Source: Thiohalobacter sp.
GTDB lineage: Bacteria; Pseudomonadota; Gammaproteobacteria; DSM-19610
Assembly (NCBI GenBank): GCA_026984835.1
Contig: JALSRI010000191.1
Coordinates: 1-39,889 of the forward strand
Direction of reading: 5' to 3'
DNA length: 39,889 bases
In this document: positions 3,238 through 8,082 of the stretch, piece by piece
Layout: every line of letters begins with the position of its first letter
Position numbering within the stretch: the stretch's first letter is position 1
The notes under the pieces: generated by a model
The model's database searches: none
What the model was told of the DNA's origin: nothing
Seen by the model: the letters and a program-made list of their open reading frames with translations, nothing else
Translations under genes and position numbers: made by a program

Positions 3238-4296
3238 GTGTCTGGCCACAAGTCCACCCCCCCGGAATCGTCTTCCATCAGCTACCGCGACGCCGGTGTC
3301 GACATCGACGCCGGCAACACCCTGGTCGAACGCATCAAGCCGCTGGTGAAGGCCACCCACCGGCCCGGTGTGATCAGCGGCCTGGGCGGCTTCGGCGCCC
3401 TGTTCGAGCTGCCGCTGGAGGACTACCGGCGGCCACTGCTGGTGTCCGGCACCGACGGCGTCGGCACCAAGCTGAAACTGGCCATCGACAGCGGCCGCCA
3501 CGACAGTATCGGCATCGACCTGGTGGCCATGTGCGCCAACGACATCGTGGTGCAGGGCGCCGAACCGCTGTTCTTCCTCGACTACTACGCCACCGCCCGT
3601 CTCGACGTGGACGTCGCCACCGACGTGGTGGCCGGCATCGCGCGCGGCTGCGAGCTGGCCGGCGCGGCCCTGATCGGGGGCGAGACCGCCGAGATGCCGG
3701 GCATGTACCAGGCCGGCGACTACGACCTGGCCGGCTTCTGCGTCGGCATCGTCGACAAGGACGAACTCATCGACGGCAGCTCGGTGCAGCCCGGCGACAG
3801 CCTGGTGGCGCTGGCCTCCAGCGGCCCGCACTCCAACGGCTATTCGCTGGTGCGCAAGGTGCTGGAAGTGACCGGTGCCGCATTCGACGATGACCTGGAC
3901 GGCACGCCGCTCATCGACCGGCTGCTGGAGCCGACGCGCATCTACGTCAAGCCGCTGCTGGCCCTGTTCAAGGACATCGAGGTGCGCAGCCTGTGCCACG
4001 TCACCGGCGGGGGGCTGCCCGAGAACCTGCCGCGGGTACTGCCCGAGGGCACGCGCGCCGTCATCGACACGGCGAGCTGGGAGTGGCCGGCGGTGTTCCG
4101 CTGGCTGCGGGCCGGCGGCAACATCGAGACGGCGGAGATGTACCGCACCTTCAACTGTGGCGTCGGCATGGTGCTGTGCGTCCCGGCGCAGCAGCAGCAG
4201 GCCTGCGTGGACCGCTTGTGCGAACTGGGCGAGAACGCCTGGGTGATCGGCCGCATCGAGGCCGGCGACGGCCCGGCGACGGTGGAGATGCGCTGA
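3238..4296 (+). CDS. purM: Phosphoribosylformylglycinamidine cyclo-ligase (AIR synthetase)
   Basis: A 352-residue cytosolic enzyme that closes the imidazole ring of formylglycinamidine ribonucleotide with ATP to give aminoimidazole ribonucleotide in de novo purine synthesis. The family is recognised from [13 protein letters not shown] near the N-terminus, GGFGALFEL, the nucleotide-binding [10 protein letters not shown], the metal/phosphate region [21 protein letters not shown] and the C-terminal [13 protein letters not shown]. Length agrees with the usual 345-350. The start is GTG with CGGAG upstream; it adds a short polar extension before the conserved ISYRDAGV. purN follows after 4 bp, the common purMN operon. 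Confidence 0.96.
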
Positions 4297-4300
4297 GAGC

Positions 4301-4951
4301 ATGACCCGCCCGCTGCCCATCGTCATCCTCGTCTCCGGCCGCGGCTCCAACATGCAGGCCATCGTCGAGGCGGCGCGTGCCGGCAACCTGCCGGTGGAGG
4401 TGCGGGCGGTGATCAGCAACCGCGCCGACGCACCCGGCCTGGCCTGGGCGCGCCGGGCCGGCATCGACGTGGCGGCGCTGGACCCGGCCGACTACCCGGA
4501 CCGCGAGGCCTACGACCGCGCCATGATGGGGCTGATCGACCGCTTCGAGCCGGCGCTGGTGGTGCTGGCCGGCTACATGCGCATCCTGTCGCCGGCCTTC
4601 GTGCACCACTACGCGGGCCGGCTGCTCAACATCCACCCGTCGCTGCTGCCGGATTTCCGCGGCCTCGACACCCACCGCCGGGCGCTGGAGGCAGGCCGCG
4701 CAGAGCACGGCGCCAGCGTCCATTTCGTCACCGAGGAACTGGACGGCGGGCCGGTGATCGCGCAGGTACGGGTGCCGGTGGAGGCCGGCGACGACGAACA
4801 GACGCTGGCGGCGCGGGTCCTGGAACAGGAGCACCGCCTGTATCCGGAGGTGCTGCGCTGGTTCGCCGCCGGCCGGCTCGGCTGGCGCGACGGCCAGGCG
4901 CTGCTGGACGGCGAGCCGCTGGACCAGCCCGTGGACCTCGGCCGCGGCTGA
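4301..4951 (+). CDS. purN: Phosphoribosylglycinamide formyltransferase (GAR transformylase)
   Basis: A 216-residue folate-dependent enzyme that transfers a formyl group from 10-formyltetrahydrofolate to glycinamide ribonucleotide, the third step of purine synthesis. The substrate phosphate loop appears as VSGRGSNMQA at the N-terminus. The catalytic triad of the family is present as N110 and H112 in NIHPSLLPDF and D148 in TEELDGGPV. The ATG lies 4 bp after the purM stop, with a purine-rich GGAG inside the end of purM as ribosome binding site, so the two genes are a transcriptional unit. Length is normal for bacterial PurN. Confidence 0.96.
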   Translation: MTRPLPIVILVSGRGSNMQAIVEAARAGNLPVEVRAVISNRADAPGLAWARRAGIDVAALDPADYPDREAYDRAMMGLIDRFEPALVVLAGYMRILSPAFVHHYAGRLLNIHPSLLPDFRGLDTHRRALEAGRAEHGASVHFVTEELDGGPVIAQVRVPVEAGDDEQTLAARVLEQEHRLYPEVLRWFAAGRLGWRDGQALLDGEPLDQPVDLGRG

Positions 4952-4957
4952 ACCGGG

Positions 4958-5740
4958 GTGACCGCGCTGCCGGCCCTGCTGCGCCTGCCCCGCCTGGCCT
5001 GGCTGGCGCTGACGCTGCCGGCGTTGGCTTCGGCTGGCGGCGGCGCCGAAGCGCCGGTGCCCACCTTCTGCGCCGACTACGAGATCCGCATCCACGGCTT
5101 CGGCGTCGGCCGCGCCACCTTCACTCTCGAGCGCATGGCGGACGGCAGCTACCTGTACCGGCAGCGCAGCCGCCCGACCGGCCTGGCCAGCTGGTTCCGC
5201 CGCCAGCGCGTGCACGAGAGCAGCCGCTGGCGCCTGGTCGGCGACACCCTCCAGCCGCTGGAATATTTCTACTCCCGCAGCGGCGCCGACGAACGCACCG
5301 TCGAGCTGTTGTTCGACTGGCCGGCCGGCCAGGTCGAGAACCGGGTGCAGGGCAAGCCCTGGCGCATGGACATTCCCCCCGGGACGCTGGACAAGCTGCT
5401 GGTGCAGATCGCCCTGCTCCTGGATCTGCGCCGCGGCGCCACCCGCTTCGACTACGCGGTGGCGGACGGCGGCCGCCTGAAACACTTCGCCTTCGAAGTG
5501 GTCGACGAAGAGACCATCGAACTGCCGGCCGGCACCTGGCGCGCCCTGCGGGTGCGGCGGCTCGACGACGGCGGCCAGCGCACCCTGGTGTGGGTGGCAC
5601 CGGCGCTGGGCTACCTGCCGGTGCGCTTCGTCAAGCATCGCAGGAACGGGCTGAAATACGAAATGCGCCTGCTCAGCCTCGACGAACACCGCCCCGCCGA
5701 CGCACCGCGTCTTGAAACCCCCGCGCCCGCCCCCCATTGA
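4958..5740 (+). CDS. DUF3108 domain-containing envelope protein
   Basis: A 260-residue protein of the DUF3108 family, function unknown. An N-terminal signal peptide (LPRLAWLALTLPALASAGG) predicts export to the periplasm. The mature part resembles other DUF3108 proteins: FCADYEIRIHGFGVGRATFTLE at its start, a central region of beta-strand-like alternation, and a C-terminal VAPALGYLPVRFVKHR motif, consistent with a lipid- or ligand-binding beta structure (inference). The GTG start lies 6 bp after purN, so it is probably the third gene of the purMN operon, a neighbourhood seen in other gammaproteobacteria. Confidence 0.85.
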   Translation: MTALPALLRLPRLAWLALTLPALASAGGGAEAPVPTFCADYEIRIHGFGVGRATFTLERMADGSYLYRQRSRPTGLASWFRRQRVHESSRWRLVGDTLQPLEYFYSRSGADERTVELLFDWPAGQVENRVQGKPWRMDIPPGTLDKLLVQIALLLDLRRGATRFDYAVADGGRLKHFAFEVVDEETIELPAGTWRALRVRRLDDGGQRTLVWVAPALGYLPVRFVKHRRNGLKYEMRLLSLDEHRPADAPRLETPAPAPH

Positions 5741-5794
5741 CCTGTAGAGCATGCCCGCCGTTCCGGCCGGGCCCGATACTGGACGAGGAGCGCC

Positions 5795-6910
5795 ATGAAC
5801 CTGAACGTCACTTTCAAGAATATCCAGGATTCCGCCCATCAGGAACTGCGCAAGCTGGTGTCCGGGTTCGCCGAGGGGCAGCTGGCGAAGCGGCTGGGTT
5901 CGCTCCGCGACGAAGCGGTGCGCCTGCACGCCGTCATCGAACGCCACCCCGGCGACGGGATGCACCGGGTGGCGCTGCGGCTGCGGCTGCCCCACCAGGT
6001 GCTGGTCAGCCGCGAGGACGACCCCGACGTGCGGCTGGCGCTGAAGGAGGCGTTCCAGGAACTGGAACGCCAAGTGGAACGCTACCTGTCGCGCCGCAAA
6101 CGCCGCGACCAGTGGAAGCGCCCGGCGCGCCGCGAGCGCCTGCGGCGCCTGAAGGCGGCGGTGCAGGTGCAGCCGCAGGAAGAGCGCCGGCTGTTCCTCG
6201 ACCTGGTGCAGCAGGAACTGGACGCCCTGCGCCGCTTCGTGCGCCACGAGATCACCTACCTGCGCGCCACCGGCGACCTGCGTCCCGACTACCCCGGTGT
6301 CGACGATGTCATCGACGAAGTGCTGGCGCGCGGCTGGCAGCGCTTCCACGAGCACCACGACCGCCTGTCGGTGCGCTCCTGGCTGTTCGGCATCGCGCTG
6401 GACTACCTGCAAGAGGAAGTCGGGCGCTACCACGCCGAGCAGGAAACGGTGCCGATCGAGGAACGCGTGTCGCCCCCGGCCGGCACCCTCGTCGACGACG
6501 AGATGATGGATTTCTGGCAACCCGACGAAGTGCTGCACATCGAGGACCTGGTGGAGGCACCCGACACCCTGACGCCGGAAGAAGCTGCGGAAAAGCAGGA
6601 GACGCTGGAACTGGCCTACCGCCTGTTGTCCCTGATGCCGCACACCTGGCGCCGCGCCCTGACCCTGAACCGCATCCAGGCGCTGGGCATGGACGAAATC
6701 GCCGAACTCATGCACGCCGAACCGGCCCGGGTCGAGCAGTGGGTCGGCTACGCCTCGGCCTTCATCGAGGCCCGCTGCCGCGAACTGGGCCGCGGGCTGG
6801 CTTCGGTGCAGGCGGTGCTGGAACTGTTCGGGGTACCGGCCGAAGACGCCGCCACGGCGGAACTGGCGCGGGACCTGGATGCGACCCTCGGCGCCGAAAC
6901 GGCCGCCTAG
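5795..6910 (+). CDS. Fusion protein: HPF/RaiA-like ribosome-binding domain plus ECF-sigma-like domain
   Basis: A 371-residue protein with two recognisable halves. Residues 1-105 read like a hibernation-promoting factor/RaiA (S30AE) domain: NVTFKNIQDSAHQELRK, then RVALRLRLPHQVLVSREDD and a final helix ALKEAFQELERQVERYLSRR. A very basic linker (about 98-125) follows. Residues 140-212 resemble sigma-70 region 2 (ALRRFVRHEI, VDDVIDEVLARGW, VRSWLFGIALDYLQEE), an acidic linker (215-265) follows, and residues 265-332 resemble sigma region 4 (LAYRLLSLMPHTWRRALTL, LGMDEIAELMHAEPARVEQW). GAGGAG sits just before the ATG. The domains are recognised by eye; the function is unknown. Possible roles are a sigma factor tethered to or sensing ribosomes, or a ribosome-binding protein that has co-opted a sigma fold. 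It may be read through from purMN-DUF3108 (54-bp gap). Confidence 0.8.
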   Translation: MNLNVTFKNIQDSAHQELRKLVSGFAEGQLAKRLGSLRDEAVRLHAVIERHPGDGMHRVALRLRLPHQVLVSREDDPDVRLALKEAFQELERQVERYLSRRKRRDQWKRPARRERLRRLKAAVQVQPQEERRLFLDLVQQELDALRRFVRHEITYLRATGDLRPDYPGVDDVIDEVLARGWQRFHEHHDRLSVRSWLFGIALDYLQEEVGRYHAEQETVPIEERVSPPAGTLVDDEMMDFWQPDEVLHIEDLVEAPDTLTPEEAAEKQETLELAYRLLSLMPHTWRRALTLNRIQALGMDEIAELMHAEPARVEQWVGYASAFIEARCRELGRGLASVQAVLELFGVPAEDAATAELARDLDATLGAETAA

Positions 6911-7157
6911 CCGGCTGCGGTGCGGCGGTCTTCGAGCGTACTGGCGCAGAAATCCGAACGAAGCGGAGGCGGAACGAAATGAAAGGCGACGCGTTCTTCG
7001 CGCCTTCGGGTCGATTCCAGCGCCGTGGATGCGGGGTGGGGTTCCCTTCGGTCACCCCACCCTACGCGGAGCCCCCCGAAATCACCCATAGGGTGGGTGA
7101 GCGCAGCGAACCCCACCACGACGCCGGTCCGGCGGGCTCAAAAGACCGGACGCGGCC
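6911..7157. repeat. Convergent intergenic space with two GGGTGGGGTT-type inverted repeats
   Basis: The space between the convergent HPF-sigma gene and dcd holds two copies of a short imperfect palindrome family, at about 7034-7064 and 7089-7117. The core reads TAGGGTGGGTGAGCGCAGCG and ends CGAACCCCACC, so GGTGGGGTT-like arms pair with AACCCCACC. The same family recurs five times between here and 8075. The position between two convergent genes suits a bidirectional hairpin terminator, although there is no T-tract. The rest (6911-7030) shows no gene. Confidence 0.75.
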
Positions 7158-7727
7158 TCACGCCTTGGGCAGGGTCACGCCGCGCTGGCCCTGGTACTTG
7201 CCGCCGCGGTCGGCGTAGGAGGTCTGGCAGACTTCGTCGGATTCCAGGAACAACACCTGGGCCACGCCCTCGTTGGCGTAGATCTTGGCCGGCAGCGGCG
7301 TGGTGTTGGAGAACTCCAGGGTCACGTGGCCTTCCCATTCCGGCTCCAGCGGCGTGACGTTGACGATGATGCCGCAGCGCGCGTAGGTGCTCTTGCCCAG
7401 GCAGATGGTCAGCACGTTGCGCGGGATGCGGAAGTATTCCACCGTGCGTGCCAGGGCGAAGGAATTGGGCGGGATGATGCAGACGTCGGACTTCACGTCC
7501 ACGAAGCTGTCGTCGTCGAAGTTCTTGGGGTCCACCACCGCCGAGTTGATGTTGGTGAAAATCTTGAATTCGTCCGCGCAGCGGATGTCGTAGCCGTAAC
7601 TCGAGGTCCCGTAGGAAATCACCCGCCCCACATCGGCGTGTTCACGCACCTGGCCGGGCTCGAACGGCTCTATCATCCCGTGCTGCTCGGCCATGCGGCG
7701 GATCCAGTTGTCGGATTTGATCGGCAT
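7158..7727 (-). CDS. dcd: dCTP deaminase
   Basis: A 189-residue enzyme that deaminates dCTP to dUTP, the main source of dUMP for thymidylate synthesis in gammaproteobacteria. The core [10 protein letters not shown] with S113 and R117, and [15 protein letters not shown] containing the catalytic glutamate E138, match the mono-functional Dcd family. The size equals that of the well-known enzyme (about 188-193). The ATG at 7727 has AGGAA seven bases upstream and gives the conserved N-terminus [10 protein letters not shown]; upstream in-frame codons only add repeat-derived residues. The gene lies near apbC and metG, a conserved gammaproteobacterial neighbourhood. Confidence 0.95.
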
Positions 7728-7802: not shown

Positions 7803-8074
7803 TAGGGTGGGGTGAGCGGAGCGAACCCCACCGGGACGATTCGGCGGCCATGCCCACAAGGTCACCCTGCGCTTGCCGGGCCACCGTTCAAACGAAGGGA
7901 TTCGCACCGCAGCGGGCTATGCTTCGATCAACCGGTGGCCATGGAAACATGGGCAGCCTGTCGGGGCATGGCCGCCGGACGGTTAGGGTGGGGTTCGCTC
8001 CGCTCACCCCACCCTACGCTTCGATTGGCGGTGCGGCCTTGCGTAGGGTGGCGGTGAGCGCAGCGAACCCCACC
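7803..8074. repeat. Three more GGGTGGGGTT-type inverted repeats between dcd and apbC
   Basis: Copies lie at about 7803-7832, 7984-8017 and 8043-8074. The middle copy is the most complete: TAGGGTGGGGTTCGCTCC leads into CGCTCACCCCACCCTA, a near-perfect hairpin. Copies occur in both orientations. The 355-bp gap between the two leftward genes dcd and apbC contains little else: about 150 bp of unremarkable sequence (7835-7980) with no supported gene. The copies sit directly downstream of apbC and upstream of dcd, so they could shape transcription between them. Confidence 0.8.
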
Positions 8075-8082
8075 GTTCCTCG

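Follow-up and report, generated by a model that had tools for sequence, protein, structure and literature searches.

A ribosome-hibernation domain fused to a sigma-like module without promoter-reading features in a protein family linked to bacterial stress islands

Can one protein chain connect the state of the ribosome with the transcription machinery? The question is raised by a 39,889-nt stretch of DNA from Thiohalobacter sp. (contig JALSRI010000191.1, here called the window), in which one open reading frame joins a ribosome-hibernation domain of the HPF/RaiA type to domains resembling those of an ECF sigma factor. A preliminary description of the sequence had proposed that such a chain links translation status to promoter choice. 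The reading frame codes for 371 aa and starts with ATG, with a Shine-Dalgarno-like GAGGAG a few bases 5' of it. The gene, its parts and its upstream neighbours are arranged as follows.

3238–4296: purM
4301–4951: purN
4958–5740, plus strand: DUF3108 protein gene, upstream neighbour, ending 54 bases before the fusion gene
5795–6910, plus strand: complete HPF-sigma-like fusion gene, 371 aa from ATG, with full-length homologues
5795–6109, plus strand: S30AE (HPF/RaiA) domain, residues 1–105, PF02482 above cut-off, HPF fold
6110–6169, plus strand: extension of the last S30AE helix, residues 106–125, with conserved basic residues 108, 109, 112, and 113 (predicted helix 79–123)
6170–6439, plus strand: sigma region 2-like helices, residues 126–215, without promoter-contact features
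6482–6562, plus strand: acidic linker, residues 230–256, with the family signature (in the window DFWQPDEVLHIEDLV; QPD in 30/30 members)
6575–6784, plus strand: sigma region 4-like helix-turn-helix, residues 261–330, with a non-basic recognition helix

Both halves were recognized by sequence and by fold. PF02482 (Ribosomal_S30AE) matches residues 17–102 with 29.1 bits against a cut-off of 23.7 (E = 1.6e-6), and a profile built from 30 family members matches HPF 8uu4 with E = 1e-7. In the AlphaFold model the S30AE fold occupies residues 2–123, and Foldseek aligned it to HPF with TMt up to 0.86. For the second half, TIGR02937 (sigma70-ECF) matches residues 137–320 with E = 5.3e-9, yet its 35.9 bits lie below the cut-off of 42.9, and PF08281 (region 4) has E = 4e-4 and 20.3 bits against 25.7, so that neither of these curated sigma cut-offs is reached. 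ECF sigma 7qh5 was found by phmmer of the PDB (residues 145–328, E = 6e-8), and the family profile matches sigma-E with E = 3e-15 overall, mostly over region 4; region 2 alone gives 13.9 bits. Region 2 is thus weak by sequence and is assigned mainly on its predicted fold and a short retained motif. Sigma-like helices are modelled at 128–218 and 261–330 and are similar to ECF sigmas with TMt up to 0.73, the best matches being anti-sigma-bound shapes such as CnrH-CnrY; the pTM of 0.56 means that the relative placement of the domains is not settled by the model. The joining of HPF and sigma-like domains in one chain, with the borders first drawn at 1–105, 140–212, and 265–332, is therefore upheld by the above-cut-off PF02482 match, the TIGR02937 and PDB matches, and the recovery of both folds; of the proposed Pfam assignments, the S30AE one stands above its cut-off, and no sigma match reaches a curated one.

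The fusion is not a local artefact, which is ruled out by full-length fusions at 82 loci in Gamma-, Beta-, and Alphaproteobacteria, Acidobacteriota, and Caldisericota. In the genome collection, whole-length homologues occupy 61 loci that span the Proteobacteria classes to Acidobacteriota and Caldisericota; such homologues are about 25–40% identical, including those in relatives of the source organism. In the class of the source organism, 16 of 369 sampled genomes carry the fusion. A homologue was also present on 293 plasmid records, with query coverage of at least 80% in 273. The window copy forms a long branch in the tree; its nearest relative is 41% identical, and the gene of that relative follows a thioredoxin 2 gene. 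Copies in Burkholderiaceae are under purifying selection, with dN/dS of about 0.2 and, for one pair of nearly identical copies, 0.35. Members without the S30AE half exist as well, and these retain the sigma-like part and some form of the linker motif. One such S30AE-less gene (locus L177, 6155–6889) has the variant motif FQPEDLP and no evident stress neighbour.

What the sigma-like half has lost was examined in the 30 family members on which the statistics of the recognition helix, Asn, QPD, and the profile are based. The net charge of the recognition helix is on average −1.9 and is zero or negative in 30/30 members, whereas it is on average +2.8 and at least +1 in all 19 comparison sigma factors. 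After the WLY.IA motif (region 2.3/2.4, WLYRIA.N) comes an Asn in 10/10 sigmas with this region aligned and in 0/30 of the family; WLF/WLY.IA itself is found in the window protein and in part of the family. A region 2.2-like motif, D[DE].VDE.., is partly retained; the region-2 motif is eroded in the heat-resistance island tLST and in several gammaproteobacterial lineages. The sigma-like half is descended from an ECF-type sigma factor, and its promoter-reading features are gone from the whole family. The protein is probably not a usual sigma factor, and the idea of promoter choice is not supported, as the residues for it are missing throughout.

The best-conserved segment is instead the linker between regions 2 and 4, with a column entropy of 1.28 compared with 1.9–2.3 elsewhere across the 30 members. 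The acidic character noticed earlier is real: the net charge is −13 in the window and −8 to −18 across the family. QPD is invariant there, residues 224–243 are predicted to be disordered, and the signature is common to Proteobacteria, Acidobacteriota, and Caldisericota. The highest conservation of all segments indicates that the linker, for which a putative role as internal inhibitor had been proposed, probably matters, and its combination with predicted disorder suggests that it acts as a binding motif.

HPF and RaiA idle or protect the ribosome, with the S30AE domain seated in the channel for mRNA and tRNA on the 30S subunit. A tie of the fusion protein to translation is plausible. Of eight columns that are basic in canonical HPFs, three (positions 28, 92, and 96) remain so in 83% or more of the members, although the window protein itself has Gly at 28, one is basic in about half, and four (residues 19, 25, 36, and 89) are mostly not retained, so that the protein may bind ribosomes differently or no longer at all. 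The domain is followed by the conserved basic helix extension. The dimerisation domain of long HPF (PF16321) gave no match in the window protein or the 30 members, where the sigma-like part is found instead. The family resembles HPF/RaiA (YfiA) in the S30AE fold, its N-terminal placement, and several basic positions, but differs in the loss of others and in having a sigma-like module where those proteins have nothing or the dimerisation domain. From ECF sigma factors (sigma-E, TIGR02937), with which it shares the folds of regions 2 and 4, correctly ordered, and the region 2.2-like motif, it differs in the missing promoter-reading residues, the long, strongly acidic conserved linker, and the S30AE domain in front. 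A hibernation domain joined to a regulatory module is also known from archaeal HibA, an HPF/RaiA-CBS protein whose ribosome binding was seen by cryo-EM (PMC13324472); the bacterial fusion differs in its partner domain, which is sigma-like and not CBS.

Gene neighbourhoods point to stress. When homologues were grouped into 31 clusters at 70% identity, a quality-control neighbour (Hsp20, ClpK, GroEL/DnaK, YfdX, HdeD, or DegP) was found in 17/31 and at least two kinds in 15/31, compared with 1/20 and 0/20 of control stretches, a contrast that somewhat favours the claim because family loci supplied the reference proteins, and the genome of one relative all 20 controls. Copies in Burkholderiaceae sit among Hsp20 genes, groES, groEL, and dnaK; in Alphaproteobacteria the fusion gene stands after ClpK and before hdeD; and other gammaproteobacterial copies adjoin cbpA, htpX, yfdX, psiE, hsp20, or degP. 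On the tree the stress-gene context needs five changes, at least three of them on well-supported branches, and by the tree this neighbourhood was acquired at least three times. Such repeated independent uptake by chaperone islands, as it seems, suggests that ribosome idling is part of the island function. The neighbours overlap strongly with those reported for Balon genes, i.e., Hsp20, DnaK, HdeD, RtcB, RaiA, and sigma70 in stress operons (PMC10901736); the Balon fold itself is aeRF1/Pelota-like and unrelated to the fusion.

Several single loci have further neighbours. Archease and RtcB, an RNA-repair pair, are coded on the same strand downstream of one homologue (L128, 1524–4520). In two gammaproteobacterial genomes a thioredoxin-like plus HEAT-repeat protein gene lies downstream of the fusion (L005, 2592–3248; L130, near 6329). 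At a stress locus on an Azospirillum plasmid (L015, 4932–6829), an S30AE-less sigma-like gene overlaps by a few bases a gene of baeRF family 10, a release-factor-like family. A general rule that S30AE-less members pair with Balon-type genes is kept as a lead only, as this is the one case and no baeRF is annotated beside the Phenylobacterium copy.

In E. coli and Klebsiella the family is represented by orf11 of the heat-resistance island tLST, a full-length member with 26% identity to the window protein, as shown by homology over the full length, the QPD linker signature, and its place in the tree. It has the same domain order and predicted folds (S30AE fold with TMt 0.88 to V. cholerae HPF, sigma fold weaker), but its sequence is divergent, its S30AE domain falls below detection in a Pfam search, and it is located between hdeD and trx on a mobile island. 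The counterpart in TLPQC of aeruginosa was assigned by its position between hdeD and thioredoxin. Among 5426 complete E. coli genomes, 152 carry orf11. Seven tLST genes are reported as needed for heat or chlorine resistance in E. coli, and orf11 is neither one of them nor among the deletions reported to lower resistance (PMC8407380); in LHR2 it is interrupted (PMC5383660). The dN/dS of 0.34–0.78 in tLST orf11, a weaker purifying selection, agrees with this dispensability and disruption, and in tLST the protein may be on the way to losing its function. For orf11, hitherto unexplained, the family supplies a domain composition and a possible function that can be tested.

The explanation we prefer, with chances that we judge about evenly balanced, is a stress-linked protein of the ribosome-hibernation type whose sigma-derived part would work as an adaptor or decoy rather than as a promoter-specific sigma factor. 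By analogy with HPF and RaiA, the S30AE domain would be expected to occupy the 30S channel for mRNA and tRNA when cells are under proteotoxic or oxidative stress, and the ribosome would be idled or protected. The C-terminal half, ECF-sigma-derived and apparently no longer reading promoters, would bind a partner through its sigma fold and the acidic linker. Core RNA polymerase or an anti-sigma factor is the most likely partner, and ribosome idling would in this way be coupled to transcription. We infer ribosome binding, the partner, and the direction of regulation; the domain make-up, the conservation of the fusion, the loss of promoter contacts, and the link to chaperone islands are computational results. 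The lost promoter-reading features and the conserved, disordered acidic linker argue for an adaptor or decoy rather than a promoter-specific sigma. The Balon-like neighbours, the archease-RtcB pair, and the baeRF overlap count for it, as do the dN/dS in Burkholderiaceae and the kept positions 28, 92, and 96. The missing chaperone neighbour of the window copy and of many gammaproteobacterial copies counts against it, and the dispensability of orf11 and its disruption in LHR2 count against a role in stress survival. The region 2.2 motif of sigma factors docks on RNA polymerase, and the partly retained docking helix speaks against a pure decoy, which would not need it. If the preferred explanation is right, the protein would physically connect the transcription machinery with the idling of ribosomes during stress. 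A doubtful variant is an island-spread joint storage factor for the ribosome and core RNA polymerase in heat or oxidative stress, with sigma-like docking and the linker in the polymerase cleft.

Three other readings have to be weighed. A divergent but genuine ECF sigma, whose S30AE domain is a sensor held on idle ribosomes and whose release leads to stress promoters, would fit the ECF superfamily match (E = 5e-9), the region 4 fold and sigma-E profile match, the retained region 2.2-like motif, and neighbouring stress genes as natural targets; we consider it unlikely, for the recognition helix is non-basic and the region-2 Asn lost in every member, the region-2 motif is eroded in tLST and elsewhere, and the window protein is below every curated sigma cut-off. 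In PhyR, counterparts of sigma regions 2 and 4 are present but do not recognize promoters, and a similar mimic could titrate an anti-sigma and free a separate stress sigma, with S30AE as the ribosome-state input. Its sigma-like domain PF22233 is weak in the window (14.2 of 27 bits) but matches 8/30 members (best 3.6e-8), PhyR structures are among the profile matches, and Foldseek favours anti-sigma-bound sigmas (CnrH-CnrY, SigW-RsiW, RpoE-NepR). Such a mimic is nevertheless quite unlikely: a receiver domain gave no match in the window protein and the 30 members, S30AE being in its place, no anti-sigma gene was seen adjoining the fusion gene (as already noted in the preliminary description), the domain arrangement of the model is unsure, and the family extends beyond Alphaproteobacteria to phyla that are not known to have NepR. 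Least probable is a hibernation or RNA-binding protein whose sigma-derived part is a structural relic, e.g., for dimerisation or solubility, with no role in transcription. The degenerate sigma part beside a well-kept S30AE fold, even in orf11, and the tolerated loss of orf11 agree with it, but the linker signature is conserved across three groups of bacteria, and the sigma-like part persists, together with some form of the linker motif, in members that lack S30AE.

Among the papers that could be searched, none was found that describes the fusion; within that literature, a conserved protein that joins HPF and sigma-like domains and is tied to stress islands appears to be new.

In the window, the fusion gene is flanked by the DUF3108 gene and dcd. 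A shared transcript with purM, purN, and the DUF3108 gene is possible, but this context is not conserved; the suggested response to nucleotide supply was rejected, since purM and purN match no homologue locus and chaperone or stress islands are found there instead. A scan limited to the sigma-70 type gave no dedicated promoter before the gene in 5400–7200, and no known RNA element was found in the window. No quality-control gene was present near this copy within the first 13 kb, and the hdeD-orf11-trx arrangement is absent. A tLST ClpK in the same genome was ruled out, the best matches being just 41–54% identical. Dispersed intergenic repeats of REP-like look with the core GGTGAGCGCAGCGAACCCCACC surround dcd (7034–7123, 7810–7838, and 7986–8080), and about seven units of 122–124 bp with the core CCCCATCGCGGCCAAGGCCGCTCCTACGG form a tandem array at 33–798. 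Another contig of the same genome codes for a second S30AE fusion (L002, 1456–2055), in which S30AE is joined to a cold-shock domain (E = 4.5e-6, 26.9 of 27 bits).
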